Source: Minisyncoccota bacterium
GTDB lineage: Bacteria; Patescibacteriota; Minisyncoccia; UBA6257
Direction of reading: 5' to 3'
DNA: 38,162 nucleotides
Assembly (NCBI GenBank): GCA_028695015.1
Contig: JAQVJR010000003.1
Span: 1 to 38,162, forward strand
Part shown: positions 4,961-20,196 of the stretch, one piece after another
Layout: each line of letters starts with the position of its first letter
Position numbering within the stretch: position 1 is the first letter of the stretch
Position numbers and translations under genes: made by a program
Notes under the pieces: model-generated
Database searches by the model: none
Told to the model about the DNA's origin: nothing
Seen by the model: the letters and a program-made list of their open reading frames with translations, nothing else

Positions 4961-5015
4961 TTGACAAGAAAATTTTATAGATATACTATGATAATATACA
5001 GATTTGTATATTATC
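4961..5015 (+). promoter_or_regulatory. AbiE-type operon promoter with 11-bp inverted-repeat operator
   Basis: A perfect -35 TTGACA (4961-4966) is followed by -10 candidates TATACT (4982-4987, 15-bp spacing) or TATGAT (4987-4992, 20-bp spacing). A perfect inverted repeat, GATAATATACA (4990-5000) and TGTATATTATC (5005-5015) with a 4-nt spacer, covers the expected transcription start and lies 12 nt before the ATG at 5028. AbiEi-family antitoxins are known to bind promoter inverted repeats and repress their own operon, so this is the probable operator. Confidence 0.7.
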
Positions 5016-5027
5016 ACTTGGAATTAT

Positions 5028-5594
5028 ATGAATAATGCAGAACGTTTAGCCATATTAAATAAAACAAATAAAACAACTTTTTCAGCAAAGTTTCTAATTG
5101 ATATTTGGAAAGTTAAAAAAGAATCCTTTGGTGTTATAGTAAAAAGAATGGTAGATAAAGGATTATTATTTAGAATAGCTAGGGGATATTATAGTTTGAA
5201 AGAAGATTTTAATATTTATGAATTAGCAAATACTGTTATTACTCCCTCATATATTTCTTTTAATAGTGCTCTTGTTTATCATGGTGTAGCTTTTCAGGCT
5301 AGTAAAGAAATAGAATCAGCTGCTTTAATTAATTACAAAAGAGAAATGGCTGGTTATATTTTAAAATATTTTGTACTTAAAAAAGAATTATTACTGAATT
5401 CAGAAGGGATTATTCATTTGGAAAATTTTATTATAGCTACTCCTGAAAGAGCTATCTTAGATTGTTTGTATTTAAATATGTTTCCTAATATTGATAATAT
5501 AGAGAAGGTTAATAAATTACGATTAGGGAATTTATTAAAATATTACCCACAATCAGTAAAGAATAAAATTAAAGATTTATTCAATATTTCTTGA
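5028..5594 (+). CDS. AbiEi-type antitoxin / transcriptional regulator
   Basis: 188 aa from the ATG at 5028. A TTG at 5004 in the same frame lies inside the operator and is less likely. The N-terminal ~65 residues fit a winged helix (KFLIDIWKVKKESFGVIVKRMVDKG, then a wing ending GYYSL). The rest carries the AbiEi-like segment YISFNSALVYHGV and ATPERAILDCLYL. In AbiE systems this protein represses the operon and counters the nucleotidyltransferase toxin without direct binding (type IV). It is followed after 3 nt by the AbiEii-like gene. The family call rests on motif recall and gene order; pairwise identity is unknown. Confidence 0.78.
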   Translation: MNNAERLAILNKTNKTTFSAKFLIDIWKVKKESFGVIVKRMVDKGLLFRIARGYYSLKEDFNIYELANTVITPSYISFNSALVYHGVAFQASKEIESAALINYKREMAGYILKYFVLKKELLLNSEGIIHLENFIIATPERAILDCLYLNMFPNIDNIEKVNKLRLGNLLKYYPQSVKNKIKDLFNIS

Positions 5595-5597
5595 TTT

Positions 5598-6296
5598 ATG
5601 ACTCAAAAAGGATTTCCTGCTGAAAAGCATAAAAGAATTCTTACAGGGGTTTTATTAGATATATTTAAATACCTAGATGGCAAAATTGCTTTTAAGGGAG
5701 GTACTGCTGCTATGTTATTTTATGGATTACCTCGGCTTTCTTTAGATTTAGATTTTGATGTTATAAAAGATTTAGATTCAGAAGATATAGACAGGATAAA
5801 GATAGTTATTGAAAAATATGGCCGGATTAAAGATTTTTATAATAAAAGGTATGCTTTGTTTTTCTTATTAGATTATGAATTAAATGCTCCTAATATTAAG
5901 CTAGAATTTAGCAAAAGGAAATGGAAAAATAATAACTATGTAACTCACTGGCTTTCTGGGACTGAGGTGAAAATTGTCGATATTCCAACCATGGTTACTC
6001 ATAAAATAATAGCTTTGACTGATAGAAAAGTGCCTGTTGCTCGTGATTTATTTGATGTTTACTATTTTTTGAATAAAGGGTATTCTATTAATCCTGAATT
6101 ATTAAAAGAGAGGATTAATAAATCCCAGAAAGAATATTTAAATGATTTAATTAAGTTTATAGAGAGAAATTATAATTCAAAAAATGTTTTACAGGGCATA
6201 GGTGAATTAGTTAATGAAAAAGAAAAAGAATGGTTAAGAAAAAACTTAGTTACAGAAAGTATAAAAGAAATAAAGAAATACCTAGAGAAATATTAA
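5598..6296 (+). CDS. AbiEii/AbiGii-type nucleotidyltransferase toxin
   Basis: 232 aa. FKGGTAAMLFYGLPRLSLDLDFDV contains the family pattern: GGT at 34-36, then S48-x-D50-x-D52, the metal-binding pair of a DNA polymerase beta fold. A later KIIALTDRKVPVARDLFDVYYF segment matches the AbiEii motif with Lys and two Asp. Related toxins transfer nucleotides to RNA (tRNA acceptor ends in characterised cases) and stop growth. It is in one operon with the AbiEi-like gene. The likely role is phage abortive infection or plasmid/locus stabilisation; the target here is unknown. All catalytic acids are present, so it looks intact. Confidence 0.85.
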   Translation: MTQKGFPAEKHKRILTGVLLDIFKYLDGKIAFKGGTAAMLFYGLPRLSLDLDFDVIKDLDSEDIDRIKIVIEKYGRIKDFYNKRYALFFLLDYELNAPNIKLEFSKRKWKNNNYVTHWLSGTEVKIVDIPTMVTHKIIALTDRKVPVARDLFDVYYFLNKGYSINPELLKERINKSQKEYLNDLIKFIERNYNSKNVLQGIGELVNEKEKEWLRKNLVTESIKEIKKYLEKY

Positions 6297-7385: not shown

Positions 7386-8530
7386 AGTCAAAATATATTA
7401 TTTTTGTAAATGATACAGCTGCTACAGAAGGAGGAGCATTAACTATTTTAAGACAATTTTTAAGCAATATATCAAAATATTCTCCAGAAAATTTTATTTA
7501 TTATGTTTTTTGCTCATTAGAAGAATTAAAGCAATACGAGAGTGATAACATTAAAATCATTAATGATATTAAAGGGAAAAAAAGAATAGATCGAATTAAA
7601 TGGGATTTGTTTGGTTTAAAAAAATGGAGTCAAAAACATAATATTAAAGCAGATTTGCTTATTTCTCTGCAAAATACTGGGATTCGTTATTATAAAAACA
7701 CTAAGCAAATAGCTTATATACACCAACCACTATCTTTTTATCAAATTAAGAGATGGAAATTGTTTAACAAAGACGAAAGAGGGCTGTGGTTCTATCAAAA
7801 TATTTATAAAAAAATTATTCAATATGGTTTAAGAAAAGATACTCATTTGGTAGTTCAAACAGAAACAATGAAAAAAGCTATGCAAAAACAGCTCAAGAGA
7901 GATGATTCTAAAATAAAAGTAATAAAACCAAGTCTTGAAAAAATAGAGATAGAAAAAATTAAAACCATAGACTTTGGCGATAACAAATTTCATATTTTCT
8001 ACCCCGCAGCTACATTTCCATATAAAAACCATGAAATTATTATTGAAGCATTGAGGTTGCTTAAGAATCAAGAAAAAAATATTTATCAAAATTTAGTGGT
8101 TCATTTTACCTTTGAGGCAGATAAAAAGGCACGAAGCACAAAATTAATTAAATTAATAAATCAAAAAAAAGTAGAAGATGCTATTATTCTTGAAGGGCAA
8201 ATACCTTATGATAAAGCTCTTTCATTATATAAATCCTCTGATTTATTAGTTTTCCCAAGTTATATAGAATCACTTGGTTTGCCTATGATAGAGGCAGCCA
8301 TGTTTGGTTTACCTATCTTAGTTTCTAGTGTGGATATTAATAAAGAGGTTTTACAAGATTATAAAGGTGCTAGATTTTTAGATTATAATAATCCTCAAGC
8401 TTGGGCAGAGGCTATAAAAGATGCTTATTTTAAAAAACAAAAATTCCCTGAGTATAAAGAAAATAATAGCAATAATTGGTCTCAATTTTTTGCTTTGATT
8501 AAGGGATTGATATACAATGAAATAACTTAA
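7382..8530 (+). CDS. Glycosyltransferase, GT4 family
   Basis: 382 aa, GT-B fold expected. The N-terminal half has the donor-independent EGGALTILRQF segment (about 16-26) typical of a glycine-rich acceptor loop. The C-terminal half has FYPAATFPYKNHEIIIEAL and then VFPSYIESLGLPMIEAAMFGLPI, the GT4 E-x7-E nucleotide-sugar binding signature. It transfers a sugar from a nucleotide donor to a lipid-linked or nascent glycan at the inner face of the membrane. Substrate cannot be read from sequence. It is translationally coupled to wecB by a 4-nt overlap, which makes a ManNAc- or GlcNAc-related role plausible. Confidence 0.88.
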   Translation: MKSKYIIFVNDTAATEGGALTILRQFLSNISKYSPENFIYYVFCSLEELKQYESDNIKIINDIKGKKRIDRIKWDLFGLKKWSQKHNIKADLLISLQNTGIRYYKNTKQIAYIHQPLSFYQIKRWKLFNKDERGLWFYQNIYKKIIQYGLRKDTHLVVQTETMKKAMQKQLKRDDSKIKVIKPSLEKIEIEKIKTIDFGDNKFHIFYPAATFPYKNHEIIIEALRLLKNQEKNIYQNLVVHFTFEADKKARSTKLIKLINQKKVEDAIILEGQIPYDKALSLYKSSDLLVFPSYIESLGLPMIEAAMFGLPILVSSVDINKEVLQDYKGARFLDYNNPQAWAEAIKDAYFKKQKFPEYKENNSNNWSQFFALIKGLIYNEIT

Positions 8531-8535
8531 CATTT

Positions 8536-10152
8536 ATGAAAATACTTACAGGTAAAAAATGGCAAAATGGTCTTTTAGATTATTATTGTAGCAAGAAAGA
8601 ATATAGAATTCAGGTTTTAGCTTGGAAGAATTTGGAAAAAATAGAAGGTGCTTATTATATCAGACCTAAGAGTTTAAAAATGGCTTTAAGGTATTTACCA
8701 GTTGTTGGTTTTTACGGGTTATTTACAAAAGCCTGGTCTAGATTTCGTGAACAAAGGAGAAATGATAAATATGTTTCTTGCGGCATAGGTAAAATTATTG
8801 AAACAGGGGATAATTCAGAATTTAAAAATAATGATATTATAGCCTTTATTGCGCCATTTCATCCTCATTTAGTTGAACGTTTAACTCTACCTCAGGAGTT
8901 TATTTTTAATATTGATAAAGATATTTTACCTCAATTATCATCAAAGGAAATTCTATTATATTCTTTAAATCAAAAAGGTAAATCAAATCATTGGTGGCAA
9001 GATATTATTAGTTGGAGCATATATTCGGGCAGAGATATTTCTCAAGAATTAAAAGAAAAATTAGAACAAGGATTAATTCAGGAAATTAAAAATACTGATT
9101 GGGATAATTGTGAGAAAATTAATATTCAAAACCCAACTGTAATTAAAGAAACAAAAGGTGAAGTTAAGAAACTAGATTCTCGTAAAACAGGAGTTCTTTT
9201 TGGTTTTGGTAATTATGCTAAAACCAATATTATCAGTTTTATGAAGCCTTTTGTTAATATCACGACTATTCATGAAATTGATCCCACACAAATTTGGCAA
9301 AAAAGCGCTCAAAAATGGGACGCAAGTCCTTTCCCAAGAAATAATGAAAAATATGATGTTTATTTTGTTGCCAGTTATAATCATACTCATACCCCAATAA
9401 CTTTACATGCTTTAAAACAAGGCGCTTATGCTGTAGTGGAAAAACCAGTGGCTATGGATTATGAAGAATTAGAAGAAATTGAAAAGGCAATAAAACAATT
9501 TGGACCTAAGGTTTTTATTGGTTTTCATAAAAGATATTCTGTATTTAATGATTGGGCAAAAAAAGATTTAGGGGTTAAATCTGGTGATCCTATCTCATAT
9601 CACTCTGTTGTCTATGAGATAAGTCAGCCTAAGTATTTTTGGTATTCTTGGCCTATTTCCCGAAGTACTTTTTTTGCTAATGGTTGTCATCAAATTGATC
9701 ATTTCTTGCATCTAAATGATTTTAGCCAACCTAAGGATTTTGATATTAAATTATTACAAGATAATGCTATTGAAGTTTGGATAGAATTGGAAAATGGTGC
9801 GGTTTTTACTACAGTTTTCAGTGAAAAAGGCAGTACCCGAATTGGGCCTAGGGACCATGTAGAATTAAAAGTTCCTGGTAGGAATATTAGAATCACTGAT
9901 AATATTTTTTACTTAGCAGAAGATGAAACAAGGATTATTAGGAAAAGAAAAATGTATAAAACTAATAGTTACCGTGATATGTATATTAAGATTGGTAAAA
10001 GAATAGCTAATAATGAACAAGGGGACTCTCTTAAATCTATTATGATTTCAACAAAGTTAATGTTGGATCTAGAAGAAAAACTGCAAAGACAAAAAGGATG
10101 GGGAGATCAATATGTAAAAGCCAAAGAAAAGTTTTGGAGCTATTTTAAATAA
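8536..10152 (+). CDS. Gfo/Idh/MocA oxidoreductase with N-terminal GroES-like domain
   Basis: 538 aa. From about residue 215 there is a Gfo/Idh/MocA enzyme: Rossmann start VLFGFGNYAKTNII, then VVEKPVAMDYEELEEIE with the conserved EKP Lys, GFHKRYS and the HQIDHFLHL segment. The first ~200 residues include GIGKIIETGDNSEFKNNDIIAFI, similar to the GroES-like domain of medium-chain dehydrogenases, but no second Rossmann motif is visible. Known two-domain relatives in polysaccharide loci carry a full dehydrogenase half, so this one looks reduced. The probable role is NAD(P)-dependent oxidation or reduction of a nucleotide sugar. It lies 5 nt after one GT4 gene and 15 nt before another. Confidence 0.8.
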   Translation: MKILTGKKWQNGLLDYYCSKKEYRIQVLAWKNLEKIEGAYYIRPKSLKMALRYLPVVGFYGLFTKAWSRFREQRRNDKYVSCGIGKIIETGDNSEFKNNDIIAFIAPFHPHLVERLTLPQEFIFNIDKDILPQLSSKEILLYSLNQKGKSNHWWQDIISWSIYSGRDISQELKEKLEQGLIQEIKNTDWDNCEKINIQNPTVIKETKGEVKKLDSRKTGVLFGFGNYAKTNIISFMKPFVNITTIHEIDPTQIWQKSAQKWDASPFPRNNEKYDVYFVASYNHTHTPITLHALKQGAYAVVEKPVAMDYEELEEIEKAIKQFGPKVFIGFHKRYSVFNDWAKKDLGVKSGDPISYHSVVYEISQPKYFWYSWPISRSTFFANGCHQIDHFLHLNDFSQPKDFDIKLLQDNAIEVWIELENGAVFTTVFSEKGSTRIGPRDHVELKVPGRNIRITDNIFYLAEDETRIIRKRKMYKTNSYRDMYIKIGKRIANNEQGDSLKSIMISTKLMLDLEEKLQRQKGWGDQYVKAKEKFWSYFK

Positions 10153-11382: not shown

Positions 11383-11404
11383 ATTTAATTTTTTTATAAT
11401 TATT

Positions 11405-12319
11405 ATGCAAAAATCAATAAGCAAGGAATCTATCAAAGCTCGATTAATAGGCGGAGAATATTTTTCAGAGTTATTAATAGTTTTAAAAAATGTTTTACTT
11501 GAAAATAAAAAAGGTTCATCTTTAAGGAATAGATATATCATTGAAAAATATTTTCTAGGAACTACATTTGCTATAAACAAGCCATATATATACTTGGATG
11601 AGAGATATGGAAAAAAGCAATACTTTAACTTTGATGGTATTTTGTTTCCCAAGTTTTTATCATTCCAAGCCAAGGCCAATTTAGTTATGACTTGGCTAGA
11701 TTTTATATATCCTTATTTAACCAATGATTACAGCAGTGCCTTTGATGAAGGTCCTTATTTATATAAAAATATTCAAATACGGAAAGGAGATATAGTTATA
11801 GATGCTGGGGCTAATCTAGGTTTATTTTCAGCCTTAGCTTCTTTTTTAGGAGGAGTAGTTTATGCTTTTGAGCCAGTAAAAGAGATAAGAAAAGAATATT
11901 TAGAAAAAACAATTAAATTAAATAAAAATATTTTTTCTATTCCTTATGGGTTGTCAAATAAAAAAGAGTTAATTAATATAAAAGGAAATGTAATAGGTGA
12001 TGCCACTATAATTAGAAAAAGGCAGGAAGATATAAGAAATAATACAATTAACGAATACATTAAGGTAATTGATTTAGATAGCTGGATAAAGGAAAACAAT
12101 ATATCTAGAATAGATTTTATCAAGGCAGACATTGAGGGAGCAGAAAGACTAATGCTGGAAGGAGCACAATGGGCTTTAAAAACATTTTCTCCGAAATTAA
12201 GTATATGCACTTATCACTTACCTGACGATAAAGAAGTTTTAACGAAATTAATTCTTCAGGCGAATCCTAATTATAAAATAGAACATAGGTGGAAAAAATT
12301 ATATGCTTGGGTGGAATAA
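11405..12319 (+). CDS. FkbM family methyltransferase
   Basis: 304 aa from the ATG at 11405; an in-frame ATG at 11366 would overlap the previous gene by 17 nt and adds only a hydrophobic stub. The SAM-binding core reads VIDAGANLGLFSALASFLGG, then VYAFEPVKEIRKEY. The FkbM hallmark DFIKADIEGAERLMLEGA follows, with the DIEGAE acidic pair. FkbM proteins O-methylate sugars or polyketides; in a glycan locus, methylation of a sugar hydroxyl is the likely role. About 100 residues before the core match nothing I recognise. Confidence 0.88.
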   Translation: MQKSISKESIKARLIGGEYFSELLIVLKNVLLENKKGSSLRNRYIIEKYFLGTTFAINKPYIYLDERYGKKQYFNFDGILFPKFLSFQAKANLVMTWLDFIYPYLTNDYSSAFDEGPYLYKNIQIRKGDIVIDAGANLGLFSALASFLGGVVYAFEPVKEIRKEYLEKTIKLNKNIFSIPYGLSNKKELINIKGNVIGDATIIRKRQEDIRNNTINEYIKVIDLDSWIKENNISRIDFIKADIEGAERLMLEGAQWALKTFSPKLSICTYHLPDDKEVLTKLILQANPNYKIEHRWKKLYAWVE

Positions 12320-12405
12320 TTTTTAAATTAACGGAATGCAAATAATATGATTTATTACAAAAAAGCTTGAAGGTATCTTTGAAAACAGCTAAAAATATTT
12401 CTTAC

Positions 12406-13848
12406 ATGCAACCAATTAAAGATAAAATTAAAAGAATTATAGGATTTTTTCCGTCAAAAATAGAAAAATATATTTATAATTATTATTGGTATATACGTAG
12501 TTTCCCAAAATTGTCTGTTCTGTATGTTAAGCTTATAACTCTACCATCAATCATTAAGGAAATTGAAAAAGAAGATTCTTTTATAAAGAAGAAAAATACA
12601 GCAAAGAATCAGGTAAAAAAAGAAAAACAAAACTTGGTATTTAAGGACATAGAAAAGGCACAGCCTCAAATTAATTCTTTATTTCATTCTTCAACATATC
12701 AATATAAGATAGATAAACTAAAAGCCATTGGAGATCTTAAGAAGAGACAAGATATATTTAACCAAATTGCCCCAAACTTCTTTCAAGGGCAGAATTTTTT
12801 AAACATTGGTTGCAATACAGGATATTTTCCTCTTGTAGCGGCACAATTTTTTGAAAAAGTTCAAATTATTGATGAAGATGAAAAGTTTATAAAGTTATGC
12901 AAGACATTAAAACAATCAAACATGGAGGTTTTTCATGATTCTTTTCGTGATTTTATGCCATTGATTGAATTTGATAAAATTTTTATAGATAATGTTCACC
13001 ATCATATTTTTAAACAATGTAGAGGGTGGGAGTGGATTTGTAAATTGGCTGCAATATCTAACGGAGAGGTGTTAATAGAAGGACCGGTAGATACGGATTA
13101 TAAAGATATAAAAACTTTATTTTCTAAAGAATTACAATCAAAGTTTACATTTGAAGATTTTATGCAAGCTATGGATCCATTTTTTTCTTTAGAAAAGAAA
13201 ATAAAGTCTATTAATCCTGACTGTTGGGTAATGTTGTTTAAAAGGAAACTTAATAGAATTAATAATCAAGTTCAATTAGATAATTTACCCATCACAAAGA
13301 TTCTTAAGAATGGAATTCATTCCTTGGTTTATTTAACAAGGTTCAGTGGAAAAAAAATTGTTGCAAAAATAATTCCCCCTCGCTTTGCTCTTAATGATTA
13401 TAAAATTAGAATCCAAATTGCTTCTTTTTCTCCTTTAAGCAACGGTATTACAGGATTCATATATAAAAATAATAAATTTGTTGGATGGTTCGAAGAATAC
13501 GAAGATAAGCGAGTCAATAGAAGTAAAGAAAATCAGGTAGAATTATTAAAGTTAATCTGTGATCATGTTATATTCTTAGCTAAATTAGGCTATTTTGATA
13601 TAGATTGCTCAACACGTAATTTTTTTAAAGAAAGTAATAAATTTTTTGATAAAGGAGGAGTAGTTCATATTAAAACATTAGATTGGAATATAGATGGTAC
13701 TTCTAATTTATCTAAGTTTTTTCAAAACCTGAATGATGGTTTTAATATTATTGATAAAGAGATGTTAGAGATTATTTACAATGCTTTAAATAGTAAAGAT
13801 TTATATTTGATAGAACAAGCATTTATTAGTATTAAAAATCGATTATAA
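12406..13848 (+). CDS. SAM methyltransferase-kinase fusion (WbdD-like architecture)
   Basis: 480 aa from the ATG at 12406; an in-frame TTG at 12367 is an alternative. Residues 131-140 (FLNIGCNTGY) are SAM motif I, with IIDEDE after the next strand, so residues ~120-280 form a Rossmann methyltransferase. From ~295 the sequence looks like a protein-kinase/LPS-kinase fold: KKIVAKII (Lys 321), D400-x4-N405 in DIDCSTRNFF matching the catalytic loop HxDxxxxN, and D426 in TLDWN as the metal Asp. Escherichia coli WbdD has the same domain order and caps O-antigen chains with phosphate and methyl groups, ending elongation. Inference: a glycan chain terminator. No C-terminal coiled coil like WbdD's is present. 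Residues 1-110 are basic and unassigned. Confidence 0.65.
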   Translation: MQPIKDKIKRIIGFFPSKIEKYIYNYYWYIRSFPKLSVLYVKLITLPSIIKEIEKEDSFIKKKNTAKNQVKKEKQNLVFKDIEKAQPQINSLFHSSTYQYKIDKLKAIGDLKKRQDIFNQIAPNFFQGQNFLNIGCNTGYFPLVAAQFFEKVQIIDEDEKFIKLCKTLKQSNMEVFHDSFRDFMPLIEFDKIFIDNVHHHIFKQCRGWEWICKLAAISNGEVLIEGPVDTDYKDIKTLFSKELQSKFTFEDFMQAMDPFFSLEKKIKSINPDCWVMLFKRKLNRINNQVQLDNLPITKILKNGIHSLVYLTRFSGKKIVAKIIPPRFALNDYKIRIQIASFSPLSNGITGFIYKNNKFVGWFEEYEDKRVNRSKENQVELLKLICDHVIFLAKLGYFDIDCSTRNFFKESNKFFDKGGVVHIKTLDWNIDGTSNLSKFFQNLNDGFNIIDKEMLEIIYNALNSKDLYLIEQAFISIKNRL

Positions 13849-13968
13849 AAGGTTGTTATTAAATAAAGACAAACAAAAAAAACCAAAATATTGCAAGATT
13901 GGGATATAATTCAACGCTTTAAAGATTCTATAACTAGAAAAAGTTAGTGAATTATATTTAGAATAATT

Positions 13969-15216
13969 TTAAAGATAAGAATAATGTTTTTTTCTCAATT
14001 TGCGGTAGAGATTCATAACAGGGTTTGGTGCAAGTTTCTTTAAAAAAGATTTAATTTTTTCTTTTACCAATGCTTTTTTATGTTTTATATAAGTAATTTT
14101 GGTAATTTTATATTTTGCCTCGATGTCTTTATTGACTTTACTTTTATTTTTTGGCGAAACTAAAACGAGAATTTCTCTCCCGCCTCTGTGTGAATTTAAT
14201 TGTGTGGATAATTGAAAATTCCATTTTTTACCTATTTCTAGAATAATTTTTTCTTGCTCAAAAGGTATTTCAAAAATGATACAGTCTCCCATAGAAAAGA
14301 TATTATCTAGGGCTTTAGAAATGTTTTTTACATGATGAAGCATATTCAAAACTAAAATGATATCAAAGTATTTTTCAAGACATATATTTTCTACTTCACC
14401 TTGCTTGAAAAAGATTTTTGATTTTTTTAAAGCATGGATTTTTTTAGCTACATCTATAATTTCTTTATTTTTTTCTAAACCAACAATGTCCTTGGCACCT
14501 CTTTCTTCAATTTTAAAACTAAAATACCCATAACAACAACCAATATCTAATATTGATTTATCACTAAAATCTACTAGGTTTTGAATTCTTTCCCAAGTTT
14601 TTTCGCTTTCAGAATATCCTTTAATAATAATTCCTGATGGAAGCTCTATTCTGTGATAGTGAAAGAACTGGTTATTGTCAGTATTTGCAAAACCTGAAAG
14701 GAAGATAAGATCCATCCATCTTTTTTTCCAATCTTCTTTTTTAATAAACGCCAATTTATTATTAGTAGTGTCTACGGTTATTAAATTAGGGTTTAAATGC
14801 GCAACATAAATAAAGAGACTGGATGTTAGTTGTTTAATTGCTTGTTCACTATAATCTATTTTACATTTTTTCTTTTTTCGCTTTTCAGTTTGCCGTCTTT
14901 TTATTATATGTGGGGCCGCAAAACAAAAATAGATTTCAGAGCGAAGATCCAGTTCTTTTATTAAATCTTCCAAGTTAATATTTTCACTAAAGCCATCAAG
15001 CACAAGAGTATTAGCTTTAGTTGTTTTTATAATACTTTCTAAGAAATTTAATAATTTCTCTTTTTCTATTTTATTATTACTTGTTTTATAATAATGAAAT
15101 AAGTCAAAATTTATATATTTAGCTTTTTTTTCTTTGCAGAGACGCTTGGCTAAATATGTTTTTCCTGAACCAGGTAATCCATAAATTAATATTAATTTTC
15201 TTTTTTGTTTAGTCAT
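13969..15216 (-). CDS. P-loop kinase-SAM methyltransferase fusion
   Basis: 415 aa, the only gene read on the minus strand. Residues 13-20 (GLPGSGKT) are a Walker A motif of an AAA_33/zeta-toxin-like nucleotide kinase domain, with NFDLFHY and the VLDGFSE segment downstream (~1-170). Residues 223-231 (ILDIGCCYG) are SAM motif I, followed by VGLEKN and the post-motif ILVLNMLHHV, giving a class I methyltransferase at ~195-340. The last 60 residues are strongly basic (KIKSFLKKLAPNPVMNLYRK), perhaps membrane- or glycan-associated. It is convergent with the methyltransferase-kinase gene and divergent from the flippase. The substrate is unknown; a glycan-modifying role is inferred from position only. 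Confidence 0.75.
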   Translation of the reverse strand: MTKQKRKLILIYGLPGSGKTYLAKRLCKEKKAKYINFDLFHYYKTSNNKIEKEKLLNFLESIIKTTKANTLVLDGFSENINLEDLIKELDLRSEIYFCFAAPHIIKRRQTEKRKKKKCKIDYSEQAIKQLTSSLFIYVAHLNPNLITVDTTNNKLAFIKKEDWKKRWMDLIFLSGFANTDNNQFFHYHRIELPSGIIIKGYSESEKTWERIQNLVDFSDKSILDIGCCYGYFSFKIEERGAKDIVGLEKNKEIIDVAKKIHALKKSKIFFKQGEVENICLEKYFDIILVLNMLHHVKNISKALDNIFSMGDCIIFEIPFEQEKIILEIGKKWNFQLSTQLNSHRGGREILVLVSPKNKSKVNKDIEAKYKITKITYIKHKKALVKEKIKSFLKKLAPNPVMNLYRKLRKKHYSYL

Positions 15217-15363
15217 AGCTTTTTATTAATAAATCTTAAGAATGTGCTTTACTAAATATTCAAATTTGTTTAGAATTAAATTATACATCTATTTTTTACT
15301 ATATATCAGTAGTTTTTATAATGATTTAGCTTATTATAATGAAAAAATGATTTTTATGCAATT
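15217..15363. promoter_or_regulatory. Divergent intergenic region, candidate -10 boxes on both strands
   Basis: 147 bp between the minus-strand fusion gene and the plus-strand flippase. Two plus-strand TATAAT boxes occur at 15317-15322 and 15335-15340. On the minus strand, TATAAT is at 15285-15280. None has a convincing -35 element, and in AT-rich DNA such boxes arise by chance, so only the arrangement (divergent promoters needed) supports them. No other structure was seen. Confidence 0.35.
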
Positions 15364-16695
15364 ATGTTTTCAATAAAAGAAAAGGTTTCTGCCTTAAATC
15401 ATATATCTGTTACTTTTAGTTCTATGGTAATAAGGTTATCTCTTAATCTTTTAATAGGGATTGTTGTTGCTCGTGCTTTGGGTCCTAACGGAAAAGGGCT
15501 TTTGGCAGTTATCGTAATGATTGGGACAACCATTATTAATTTAGGCAATTTAGGGATTAGTAGCTTTAATACCTTTGCTATTTCAAATAAAAGTGTTGAG
15601 GAAAAAGATATCATCAGTAATTCTTTTTGGTTGGGTCTAATTATTAGTTTAATATCTTTTTTTGTTGTTTTAGTTTTAGCATTTAATCTTCCCATATTCT
15701 TTAGGAATATCCCTAGGAGCTATTTGCTTATTTATCTGGTATCTTTGCCTTTTATTTTTTGGGCTAATTTTTTTGATGGGATATTGATAGGAGAGCAAAA
15801 GTTCAGATTATATAATATTTTTAGTGTTATAACCCAATTAATAAGCTTAATCGGAGTAATTTTATTATTATTGGTATTTAGGCTTAATGTTTTTTATGTT
15901 GTAGTTTGGTATGCATTAATAAATATTATAGATGCTTCGTTGCCAATGAGATCTGTTTTGTCAAGATATGGATTAAGCTTTAAGATTAATGTCAATGTTT
16001 TTAAAAAATCTTTAGACTATGGCTTGAGAATATTCTTAACTGGTATTTTTTCTCTTTTAATATTACGGATAGATTTATATATGGTGAATTTTTTCAAAGG
16101 CATGGTTGAGGCTGGTTTATACTCTTTAGCTTCTACTTTTGGTAACATCTTTTTTTATTTACCTTCTTCAATTACTACTGTAATGTTTCCTAAAATTAAT
16201 ATTGAAAATAAATCAAAAAAAGAATCAGTGGCAAGATATTCTCGAATTTCCTTTTTGTCTGTTTCAGTACTTGCTCTAGGTACTTTGTTGTTTATTAAAT
16301 TTCCAATAGGATTGTTGTATGGTCGAGAATTTCTTTCAGCAGTTCAGCCCATATTATTACTTTTGCCTGGGTTAATAGCTTTATCTGTATCTAATGTATT
16401 AGGTTTATATTTTTTAAGCACCAAATATCCTTTTAAACTTACTATTAGTTGGTTTTTGGCCACAATACTCAATGCCTTATTGAACTTTATTTATATTCCC
16501 CAATATGGGATGGTAGCAGCTGCAATTACCTCAACCATTAGTTATTTATTAGTTTTTGGCTTTCATTATTATTTCTTTCATAAAGAAACCAAGATGGGTT
16601 TTTATGATATTTTAGTGCCCCGGAAAGAAGAAATAAGTAGTATTATTGAGAGAATAATGAAATTTTTGAACAAAGGTATTAAAAATAATACATAA
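15364..16695 (+). CDS. Polysaccharide flippase, Wzx/MATE-like (MOP superfamily)
   Basis: 443 aa with about 12 hydrophobic segments. The opening SVTFSSMVIRLSLNLLIGIVVARALGPNGKGLLA is characteristic: the ARALGPxGxG turn after the first helix is the hallmark of oligosaccharide flippases. A conserved charged FDGILIGEQKFRLYN segment lies near residue 137. Such proteins move lipid-linked oligosaccharide from the inner to the outer membrane face. Together with the initiating sugar transferase at 18865 this suggests a Wzx-dependent pathway; no Wzy polymerase was found in the window. Confidence 0.9.
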   Translation: MFSIKEKVSALNHISVTFSSMVIRLSLNLLIGIVVARALGPNGKGLLAVIVMIGTTIINLGNLGISSFNTFAISNKSVEEKDIISNSFWLGLIISLISFFVVLVLAFNLPIFFRNIPRSYLLIYLVSLPFIFWANFFDGILIGEQKFRLYNIFSVITQLISLIGVILLLLVFRLNVFYVVVWYALINIIDASLPMRSVLSRYGLSFKINVNVFKKSLDYGLRIFLTGIFSLLILRIDLYMVNFFKGMVEAGLYSLASTFGNIFFYLPSSITTVMFPKINIENKSKKESVARYSRISFLSVSVLALGTLLFIKFPIGLLYGREFLSAVQPILLLLPGLIALSVSNVLGLYFLSTKYPFKLTISWFLATILNALLNFIYIPQYGMVAAAITSTISYLLVFGFHYYFFHKETKMGFYDILVPRKEEISSIIERIMKFLNKGIKNNT

Positions 16696-16725
16696 TACAA
16701 GAGAAAACAAGGTATTTTTAGAAGC

Positions 16726-16779
16726 TTGACAATTGTATATATCAAGCATACAATTGTATGTAAATAGCATACAGTTATC
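16726..16779 (+). promoter_or_regulatory. MNT-HEPN operon promoter with three 21-bp-phased repeats
   Basis: TTGACA (16726-16731), 17-bp spacer, TACAAT (16749-16754): a near-consensus promoter ahead of the ATG at 16780. ACAATTGTAT occurs at 16729-16738 and again at 16750-16759, with a degenerate copy ACAGTTATC at 16771-16779. The repeats are exactly 21 bp apart, two helical turns. The middle copy is part of a perfect 14-bp palindrome, CATACAATTGTATG (16747-16760), that covers the -10. This looks like a cooperative operator, probably bound by the wHTH of the first gene. Confidence 0.72.
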
Positions 16780-17325
16780 ATGATTCCAGCTTTTACAAAA
16801 AACCAATCATTAATCTTAGAGATATTCTTCAATCATTCAGAAGATTCTTATTATCTTCGTCAAATATCCCGTTTTTTAAATAAAGAACCAGGGGTTTTCC
16901 AACGAGATATTAATAATTTAGTCAAAGATGGCATCTTAGAAAGTTATTACCAAGGGAATAATCGATTCTTTAAAATAAATAAAAACTATCCCTTATATAA
17001 AGATTTTAAGAATATTTTTTTTAAAACAATAGGCGCTAAAGGAGAATTAGAAAAAATTCTAAAAAATACAAAAGGAATAAAAGAAGCTTTTATTTATGGA
17101 TCTTTTGCCAGAGGAGAAGAAAAAAAACAAAGTGATATTGATTTATGCATTATAGGTTCAATTAATGAAAATTCTTTAATTAAAAAATTAACTCAATTAG
17201 AAAAAAAGATAAATAGGGAAATTAATTATATCTTATTAAGCGAAAAAGAGTATAAAGATAAATTAAAAAATAAAAACTCTTTTTTAGAAAATATTATTAA
17301 ACAAGAAAAAATATATTTGACATGA
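16780..17325 (+). CDS. Winged-helix / MNT nucleotidyltransferase (antitoxin-like)
   Basis: 181 aa. Residues ~1-65 form a winged helix (YYLRQISRFLNKEPGVFQRDINNLVKDG). Residues ~95-165 form a minimal nucleotidyltransferase: GSFARG at 107-112, and D119-I-D121 after exactly ten residues, fitting the GS-x10-DxD rule. The third acidic position of the family appears as Asn149 (REINYI), which may weaken catalysis. The stop overlaps the following HEPN start by 4 nt (ATGA). In MNT-HEPN (type VII) systems the MNT protein neutralises the HEPN RNase, in some cases by adding AMP groups. The fused wHTH suggests it also autoregulates. Confidence 0.82.
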   Translation: MIPAFTKNQSLILEIFFNHSEDSYYLRQISRFLNKEPGVFQRDINNLVKDGILESYYQGNNRFFKINKNYPLYKDFKNIFFKTIGAKGELEKILKNTKGIKEAFIYGSFARGEEKKQSDIDLCIIGSINENSLIKKLTQLEKKINREINYILLSEKEYKDKLKNKNSFLENIIKQEKIYLT

Positions 17326-17783
17326 AGGAGTTTTTAGAAAAATATAAAGACGCAGGGTTTATTAAAGAAGAGCAGATAGGGTTTGATCAAGTAAGTAAGC
17401 ATCTGACAAGGGCGATAGAAGATATAAAAGTTGCAGAGGCAAACACAAGCATTGATACTGGGGTAGCGTATAATTATGCCTATTTGGCAATGTTAAGGAC
17501 TGCTCGGGCTTTAATGTTTTCTTTTGGTTATCGTCCAATTAATGGTCAGCAACACAAAACTGTAGTGTTTTTTGCGGAAAAAACCTTAGGCCCAAAGTTT
17601 TCAGATTTAATAGAATATTTTAATAGAATGAGAAAAAAGCGTAATAGGTTTACTTATGATGAGCCTGATCTTTTAGTATCAGAAGAAGAAACAAAAAATG
17701 CCATTATTACTGCAAAGGCATTTGTTCCAGAGGTAACACAATTTATAAAAAAGAAAAACCCACAAAAAGAATTAAAATTATAA
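17322..17783 (+). CDS. HEPN-domain protein (toxin-like partner of MNT)
   Basis: 153 aa, all helical in appearance. The region HLTRAIEDIKVAEANTS, then the helix AYNYAYLAMLRTARALMFSFGYRP and the end RKKRNRFTYDEPD fit a HEPN fold. The usual catalytic R-x4-6-H appears as R107-N-R-F-T-Y112, so the His is replaced by Tyr. HEPN toxins are metal-independent RNases using that His; this copy may be inactive as an RNase, or the Tyr may be the modified residue. It is coupled to the MNT gene by a 4-nt overlap and followed by the UbiA-like gene after 6 nt. Confidence 0.8.
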   Translation: MKEFLEKYKDAGFIKEEQIGFDQVSKHLTRAIEDIKVAEANTSIDTGVAYNYAYLAMLRTARALMFSFGYRPINGQQHKTVVFFAEKTLGPKFSDLIEYFNRMRKKRNRFTYDEPDLLVSEEETKNAIITAKAFVPEVTQFIKKKNPQKELKL

Positions 17784-17789
17784 ATCTTT

Positions 17790-18365
17790 ATGAAAACTCT
17801 TTATTATATCTTTCTTAGTTTTCGACCTAAAAAATTGATTAAAAATCTCTTTGTTTTTGTTCCTTTGTTGTTTTCTGGAATGGTATTTAACTTACCATTG
17901 TTTTTAAAAGCTGGAGAAGCTTTTTTGTTATTTAGTTTATTTACAGGAGTGGCTTATTTATTTAATGATGTTTTAGATCAGGAAAAAGATAAAAAACATC
18001 CAATAAAATCTCAAAGACCAATTGCTTCTGGAAAATTAAACCCAAGCATAGCTTTATTTAGCAGTTTGATTTTAATTATCCTTGGTTTATGGTTAAGTTT
18101 GCAAATTAATTTGAAGTTTGCAGTAATTGCTGTTTTGTATTTGATTATTAATATGATTTATACACTTTGGTTAGAGCATGTAAGATATATTTGTTCTTTT
18201 TGCGCTGGACTAGGTTATGTTTTAAGAGTTTTAGCTGGTGGGGCAATAATTAATCTAACTTTAAACATTTGGTACATTATCTTTGGTTTTGTTTTTGGTT
18301 TATTGCATTTTTTTTATAAAAACGCATTTACTGATGAAGGAGTTAATACTCAAATAGCTAAGTAA
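17790..18365 (+). CDS. UbiA-like polyprenyl phosphate transferase, C-terminally short
   Basis: 191 aa against about 290 for decaprenyl-phosphate phosphoribosyltransferase (DPPR synthase) relatives. The first Asp-rich loop, NDVLDQEKDKKHPIKSQRP, matches that subfamily closely (NDxxDxxxDxxHPxKxxRP). The second loop LEHVRYICSFCAGLGYVLRVLAGG retains the GxVLRxxAG part, but the Asp expected a few residues after HV appears to be Cys. The reading ends in a non-hydrophobic tail after about five or six membrane helices. A T8 run near 18309 is a possible frameshift site, but the other frames also stop at once. Either a decayed gene or a shortened variant. The following pgpA-like gene overlaps it by 1 nt. 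Confidence 0.7.
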   Translation: MKTLYYIFLSFRPKKLIKNLFVFVPLLFSGMVFNLPLFLKAGEAFLLFSLFTGVAYLFNDVLDQEKDKKHPIKSQRPIASGKLNPSIALFSSLILIILGLWLSLQINLKFAVIAVLYLIINMIYTLWLEHVRYICSFCAGLGYVLRVLAGGAIINLTLNIWYIIFGFVFGLLHFFYKNAFTDEGVNTQIAK

Positions 18366-18864: not shown

Positions 18865-20196
18865 ATGTTACAAAATAGAATTAAAACTTTTTATTTGGTT
18901 GTTGGTGATTTGATTGTTTTTTATGTCTCTTTGGTTTTAGCTATTCTTATTAGGCATGGTTGGCCTTTTGATGTGGGGGTTTTTCATCAAAGCTTGTTTC
19001 CATTTTCTTTTATCTTTGTAATCTGGATTATCTTGTTTCTAATTAGTCATCTATATGAATTAAGACATGCGATTAATAGAAGAAAATTCTTTGAAATGGC
19101 TTTTAAATTATTTGGTATTGGAGCTATAATAGGCATAATCTATTTTTACCTTTTTGTACCTTCTTTAGCACCAAAAATAGTTTTATTTTTAACAATTCTT
19201 TTCTCTTTAACTTTGTTTTTAATTTGGCGGGGATTGTTTAACCGAATAATAGAAGTTCCTAAATTAAAAGTTTTTATAATCTCAGATACTGAAGAAGCAA
19301 AGGAAATCAATCTTTTTCTTAAAAAACATCCACAATTAGGCTATCAGATAGAAGAAATATTATCTCCTAAGAATATAGAAGATAAAACAGAGAAAATCAT
19401 TAAAGAGATCAAAGAAAAAGAAATTGATGCTATTGTAGTTGATGCAATTTTATTTGAGAGTTTTTTCTCTCTTTTTTCTAAATTTCCTGATATTTATTAC
19501 AAAATTAAAATTATTAATTTAGTTGATTTTTATGAATCTACTATTCAGAAAATACCAATTAATTTAGTAAATCCTTCTTGGTTTGTGGAAAATTATTATA
19601 GTAAAAACAGAGAATTTTATGAAACTATTAAAAGAATATTTGATATTTTTAGTAGTATAATATTGTTTATTTTTACCTTACCTTTTTGGTTAATAATACC
19701 TTGTTTAATAAAAATAGATTCTCCAGGCCCAATTTTACATAAATCTATTCGCAGTGGTTTAAAAGGAAAAGAATTTTATATTTATAAATTCAGAACGATG
19801 GTAGAAGATGCTAGTAGTATTGGACCAGCATGGACTTTGAAGAATGATTCGCGGATTACAAGGTTAGGTAAGGTTTTAAGATATTTGCATTTAGATGAAC
19901 TTCCTCAAATCTTTAATATTATTAAAGGAGATGTTTCTTTTGTTGGTCCACGGCCAGAAGAAATCAAATTAACAAAACTTTTTAAACAAGAAGTTCCTTT
20001 TTATGAATTCAGGGCTTTAATTAAACCTGGGGCTATTGGTTGGGCTCAGCTTAATTATCCTCATGGAGCTTCTATAGAAGATGCAAAAGAGAAATTAAAA
20101 TATGATTTTTATTACTTGAAAAACCGGAATATCTTTTTTGATGCCATTATTGCTTTAAAATCATGGCGCATTCCTTTTGAAATTCCCACTCATTAA
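18865..20196 (+). CDS. Polyprenyl glycosylphosphotransferase (initiating sugar transferase, WcaJ-like)
   Basis: 443 aa. Four or five N-terminal membrane helices (to ~115), a CoA-binding-like Rossmann middle domain (LKVFIISDTEEAKEIN), and a C-terminal bacterial sugar transferase domain from about 255. The latter shows KRIFDIFSSI, LIKIDSPGPILHK, FYIYKFRTMVEDA, LHLDELPQIFNIIKGD and FVGPRPEE, all catalytic signatures of the PglC/WbaP/WcaJ phosphoglycosyltransferases. It transfers a sugar-1-phosphate from a UDP-sugar to undecaprenyl phosphate, the first committed step of the glycan made by this locus. It is the last gene before the noncoding RNA region. Confidence 0.93.
   Translation: MLQNRIKTFYLVVGDLIVFYVSLVLAILIRHGWPFDVGVFHQSLFPFSFIFVIWIILFLISHLYELRHAINRRKFFEMAFKLFGIGAIIGIIYFYLFVPSLAPKIVLFLTILFSLTLFLIWRGLFNRIIEVPKLKVFIISDTEEAKEINLFLKKHPQLGYQIEEILSPKNIEDKTEKIIKEIKEKEIDAIVVDAILFESFFSLFSKFPDIYYKIKIINLVDFYESTIQKIPINLVNPSWFVENYYSKNREFYETIKRIFDIFSSIILFIFTLPFWLIIPCLIKIDSPGPILHKSIRSGLKGKEFYIYKFRTMVEDASSIGPAWTLKNDSRITRLGKVLRYLHLDELPQIFNIIKGDVSFVGPRPEEIKLTKLFKQEVPFYEFRALIKPGAIGWAQLNYPHGASIEDAKEKLKYDFYYLKNRNIFFDAIIALKSWRIPFEIPTH

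Follow-up and report, generated by a model that had tools for sequence, protein, structure and literature searches.

The WbdD protein of Escherichia coli O9a / Klebsiella pneumoniae O3 acts on a polymer completed in the cytoplasm, and its coiled-coil ruler trimerizes and recruits the polymerase (PMC3482155). In the methyltransferase (MTase) of this protein, the residues H132, H133, and R203 enclose the methyl group, and each of them is required for phosphate methylation (PMC3482155). The WbdD-type cap is recognized by an ABC exporter (PMC3482155, PMC11231755). In K. pneumoniae O7, ORF6 combines an MTase with a kinase which is not seen by family searches, and still produces methyl phosphate (PMC11231755). 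Since ORF6 provides this precedent, the pairing of an MTase with a kinase is not in itself new, and the novelty of P0001, the protein analyzed here, lies in its setting.

The P0001 gene is located in a window (the whole stretch of DNA analyzed, 38,162 nt) corresponding to the entire contig 4 of the host genome, which consists of 516,567 bases in 8 contigs and is 99.84% complete, a size in keeping with the minimal cell described in an earlier note on this DNA. Its frame runs from the ATG through 480 aa with no stop. In-frame TTG starts occur up to 13 codons upstream of the ATG, one of them being preceded by AAGG. The features of P0001 and its surroundings are as follows:

12406..13848 (+): coding sequence of P0001, MTase plus kinase-like domain; open frame, 480 aa
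12406..12540 (+): basic amphipathic N-terminus of P0001 (residues 1-45), possibly involved in membrane docking
12739..13233 (+): putative class I SAM MTase domain (about residues 112-276); Pfam Methyltransf_11, BLASTP to the WbdD MTase
13000..13005 (+): H199-H200, opposite WbdD H132-H133 in the alignment
13237..13845 (+): probable kinase-like domain (residues 278-480), degenerate; four-residue register, MSA-guided fold, no family match
13366..13368 (+): K321, at the beta3 lysine position, in KIVAKII; register of the unguided alignment
13603..13605 (+): D400, at the catalytic Asp position, in FDIDCSTRN; register of the unguided alignment
13618..13620 (+): N405, at the metal-binding Asn position, in FDIDCSTRN; register of the unguided alignment
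13681..13683 (+): D426, at the DFG Asp position, which reads DWN (TLDWN); register of the unguided alignment
13969..15216 (-): neighbor convergent with P0001, fusion of a P-loop kinase (AAA_33-like) with a class I MTase; Pfam
15364..16695 (+): Wzx-type flippase; PF01943 (Polysacc_synt), E 2.6e-16
18865..20196 (+): polyprenyl-phosphate glycosylphosphotransferase, initiating enzyme; PF02397, E 1.8e-55; TIGR03025
11384..17789 (no strand): exchangeable block, missing at the locus of the sister species; DNA and protein comparison

The sequence evidence that the N-terminal half of P0001 is a class I SAM MTase is weak. Residues 132-201 match Methyltransf_11 with an E-value of 6e-4, just short of the curated cut-off in Pfam, and the matches with the NCBIfam MTases are also weak. 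When the WbdD sequence serving as the yardstick, which was first verified against PDB 4azs, was compared with P0001 by BLASTP, the MTase part alone was aligned (26% over 107 aa, E 2e-5 in this one-pair comparison). The WbdD residues R36 and D82 are aligned with an R and a D in P0001, and the histidine pair is present. No equivalent of R203 was found in P0001, where a W is aligned at this position, the alignment of the last hairpin being uncertain. Ahead of the MTase, residues 6-23 show a hydrophobic moment of 0.61, and residues 1-110 contain 23 K/R vs. 11 D/E; this basic amphipathic N-terminus may hold the enzyme at the membrane.

The earlier note described an MTase followed by a kinase fold: the MTase and the order of the domains were supported, whereas the kinase fold was not detected by sequence in Pfam, the PDB, or profiles. 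The C-terminal part (about 200 aa) matches no Pfam family and no PDB chain sequence, even at E<=10, and shows no sequence similarity with the kinase half of WbdD, the BLASTP and hhalign results both being at chance level. The hhalign score obtained with the WbdD kinases was 13, which was equalled by 52 of 100 shuffles; those obtained with the APH and Ser/Thr-kinase profiles were 16 (8/100) and 17.7 (2/100), respectively, as compared with 52-79 for WbdD's own kinase against these two profiles. The best local hhalign alignments are located at the catalytic loop in the case of WbdD and the Ser/Thr kinases, and at the beta3 lysine in that of APH.

The residues Lys321, D400-x4-N405, and D426 are present exactly at the positions given in the earlier note. 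When the C-terminal domain was aligned, without guidance, with 21-22 kinases drawn from related genomes and from loci of the WbdD family, the two invariant columns were occupied by D400 and N405, a nearly invariant one by D426, and the lysine column by K321. This full four-residue register (K, D, N, D) was reached by only one of 87 shuffles and one of 87 unrelated control segments (p about 0.01), while the evidence from a lenient three-residue register was weaker (26/300 and 12/232, respectively). A home-made regular-expression motif test was discarded, since the pattern had been composed after the sequence was seen and its DFG part missed WbdD as well. The motifs themselves deviate: the HxD position reads DID and the DFG position reads DWN. 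An equivalent of the alpha-C Glu (E274, a Mg ligand, in WbdD) is absent from P0001, since there is no Glu in residues 322-362.

The AlphaFold model of the C-terminal domain obtained with a kinase MSA (row L116 omitted) has a pLDDT of 63 and a pTM of 0.54, values which are partly circular. Its elements occur in the canonical kinase order (beta1-beta2-beta3-alphaC-beta4-beta5-alphaE-loop-beta7-beta8-helices), the N-lobe being the most confident part, and the Foldseek matches listed for this model are kinases, the top TM-score among them being that of PRPK (7szc, 0.61). As the alignment supplied was made up of kinases, what can be learned here is limited to the gain in confidence. The single-sequence AF2 model of the full protein (pLDDT 36) was set aside, its Foldseek matches being meaningless. 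Because the four residues are in register and the model, which depends on the kinase alignment, follows the kinase order, the resemblance to kinases is likely to go beyond chance, and the C-terminal half is a probable, not a proven, small degenerate kinase.

P0001 is surrounded by genes encoding a wecB-type epimerase, two GT4 glycosyltransferases, a GFO/IDH-type oxidoreductase, an FkbM MTase, the Wzx-type flippase, a UbiA-family protein, PgpA, and the polyprenyl-phosphate glycosylphosphotransferase. The UbiA-family protein (17790-18365) is only 191 aa long vs. about 300 positions in the model, its closest NCBIfam match being decaprenyl-phosphate phosphoribosyltransferase, and this short form has also been kept in the sister species. 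An ORF at 196-675 (159 aa) contains an AGLLDGDG stretch which resembles, by eye, that of LAGLIDADG homing endonucleases. The earlier note's finding omits the convergent neighbor (13969-15216, minus strand), which is a second kinase-MTase fusion. The MTase of this neighbor is nearer to that of WbdD than P0001's is (BLASTP E 4e-10 vs. 2e-5). In the PDB, the neighbor matches WbdD at about 1e-5, as well as an adenylate-kinase-like protein, and the families which it matches best are those of generic MTases such as UbiG, CmoB, and TIGR04290. Since two kinase-MTase fusions with opposite domain orders and different types of kinase adjoin each other, phosphate and methyl groups are suggested to be a theme of this cassette.

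The flippase and the lack of a visible ABC exporter reported in the earlier note were both borne out: no wzm/wzt genes adjoin P0001 in the window, and no Wzm/Wzt-type exporter was detected anywhere in the 99.8%-complete genome. The genome encodes two ABC-2 permeases, both outside the P0001 locus and each adjoining an ATPase which, upon reading the sequences, is NatA/DrrA-like; they were rejected as Wzm/Wzt candidates, since they form drug-exporter-like pairs. Wzz was not detected in the genome, in which one Wzy_C/TPR protein, a distant Wzy-type, is encoded elsewhere. Next to the latter gene there is a 713-aa dehydrogenase/GFO-IDH fusion (L137:4534-6675, minus strand), of which the 538-aa oxidoreductase at 8536-10152 in the window may be a shortened relative, and the two loci may for this reason be linked. 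The glycan route looks like Wzx plus a distant Wzy-type protein. ATP and SAM are cytoplasmic, so that an enzyme using them in a Wzx pathway is limited to nucleotide sugars or the lipid-linked unit prior to flipping.

In the sister species (G003, about 95% identical), the same locus is present and most of the flanking blocks show 91-96% DNA identity, but block 11384..17789 is missing, as is a second block of the window, 7386-8531. The genes replacing them are dTDP-sugar genes and genes encoding a UDP-sugar dehydrogenase, GT8 and GT4 enzymes, an MTase, a 679-aa orphan, a PGA_cap protein, another FkbM MTase, and a Wzx showing 42% identity. The orphan (L130:10798-12834, minus strand) has no Pfam match and reads like MTase fragments flanking an unknown middle. 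Toxin-antitoxin-like pairs occur in the exchanged glycan region (16780-17783, nucleotidyltransferase/HEPN) and at its edge (5004-6296, AbiEi/AbiEii), and the corresponding edge in the sister species carries an AbiE pair which has diverged. DNA and protein comparisons yielded no counterpart of P0001 at the sister locus. Because that locus has a different Wzx and no P0001 counterpart, P0001 can be said to be an exchangeable cassette gene, and its function, as judged from these comparisons, is a replaceable, cassette-specific one. Searches with the full protein or its C-terminus detected no orthologs in the whole order (244 genomes), in samples of the class (384) and the phylum (380), or in GTDB contigs, viral contigs, plasmids, and phages; the matches obtained were rejected, since they proved to be MTases of a generic, stand-alone type, a recombinase (L002), or chance alignments.

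We propose, with a probability of roughly one in two, that P0001 decorates a glycan as a membrane-associated enzyme of the cytoplasm, its kinase-like and MTase domains acting on a polyprenyl-linked oligosaccharide, and that it is not a chain-length ruler. The C-terminal degenerate protein-kinase-like domain would phosphorylate a hydroxyl of the oligosaccharide, and the N-terminal SAM MTase would then methylate this phosphate or an adjacent hydroxyl ahead of flipping by Wzx, thus contributing a side or end group to the glycan; if the kinase-like domain is dead, P0001 would add a methyl group only. Phosphorylation and/or methylation of the lipid-linked oligosaccharide is the most likely activity, whereas the kinase fold and activity, the substrate, the order of the reactions, and the docking at the membrane are inferred. 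The decorating role is the parsimonious reading, since P0001 ends after the kinase-like domain and no WbdD-type exporter was found.

Whether the C-terminal domain is a kinase at all is the point on which the main alternative turns. If it is a pseudokinase or has some other fold, serving for example to bind the acceptor, P0001 would simply be an O-methyltransferase of sugars that carries an accessory domain, which seems to us a somewhat doubtful but by no means negligible explanation. It would account for the lack of Pfam and PDB matches, the chance-level hhalign score against the WbdD kinases, the DID and DWN motifs, and the missing alpha-C Glu, and the missing phosphate-MTase residue R203 is consistent with a plain MTase; but it leaves unaccounted for the four key residues, whose register is supported at a level of about 1%, and the MSA-guided model with its confident N-lobe. 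It is improbable, on the other hand, that P0001 is a terminator resembling WbdD or O7 ORF6, setting the chain length via a methyl phosphate cap at the non-reducing end; a WbdD-like chain-length terminator had been proposed in the earlier note. The shared domain order and the histidine pair speak for such a role, as does the fact that no Wzz was found in the genome, which leaves length control otherwise unexplained. Against it, nothing is present C-terminal of the kinase-like domain, so that there is no coiled-coil ruler; polymerase recruitment, similarity to the WbdD kinase, and R203 are absent as well. The cap is read by an ABC exporter (PMC3482155, PMC11231755), and the loci of the WbdD family which were inspected adjoin wzt or wzm/wzt, yet Wzm/Wzt was not found here; the route involves Wzx, with a Wzy-type protein encoded elsewhere, and the sister locus lacks the gene. 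The interpretation as a WbdD-like terminator is not supported, and P0001 does not belong to the family of chain terminators which includes E. coli WbdD.

Capping might also take place on the lipid-linked oligosaccharide in the cytoplasm, so that the unit, once past Wzx, could do no more than begin a Wzy-type chain, or could never lengthen one, and the chain length would be set, or a single decorated unit produced, without Wzz. This is very unlikely; if true, it would extend length control by capping beyond ABC-dependent systems. It is also rather improbable that the methyl-phosphate enzyme of the cassette is the neighbor (13969-15216), P0001 only methylating or binding another part of the glycan: the neighbor's MTase is the closer of the two to WbdD and its P-loop kinase is recognizable, but its best families are generic MTases, histidine pairs are common in such enzymes, and a parallel role for P0001 remains compatible with this explanation. 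In the case of the decorating enzyme that we favor, if the kinase-like domain is active, an MTase paired with a kinase would be decorating a surface glycan with phosphate and methyl groups in a system based on Wzx instead of an ABC exporter, and a 0.5-Mb genome would be devoting two adjoining fused enzymes to glycan decoration. The comparison with the sister species indicates that serotype-like swapping of glycan cassettes occurs in such reduced genomes. The rule that WbdD-type capping accompanies ABC exporters is not overturned by P0001.

Among the known systems, the small PKL kinases (Bud32/PRPK, aminoglycoside phosphotransferase-like) resemble the C-terminal domain in size (about 200 residues) and in the order of the elements in the MSA-guided model, but no significant sequence match was obtained with them; P0001 is not recognized as a PKL kinase, since no gene in the genome matches Pfam APH or Pkinase at E<=1e-3. 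In both WbdD and P0001, a class I MTase in the N-terminal part precedes a kinase-like domain. The two proteins have the histidine pair in common, and D351, N356, D369, and the beta3 Lys of WbdD are in register with D400, N405, D426, and K321. WbdD differs, however, in having a recognizable kinase, R203, E274, and an ABC exporter as its partner, all four of which P0001 lacks, and a 250-residue C-terminal coiled coil which trimerizes and recruits the polymerase, of which P0001 has no equivalent, its only charged, weakly heptad-like stretch being N-terminal. ORF6 of K. pneumoniae O7 differs from P0001 in its carbohydrate-binding domain, coiled coil, GT2 modules, and ABC-dependent system (PMC11231755), but its N-terminal module, going by its description, is built like P0001: an MTase followed by a domain of about 220 aa with a catalytic Asp, a kinase which family searches miss (PMC11231755).
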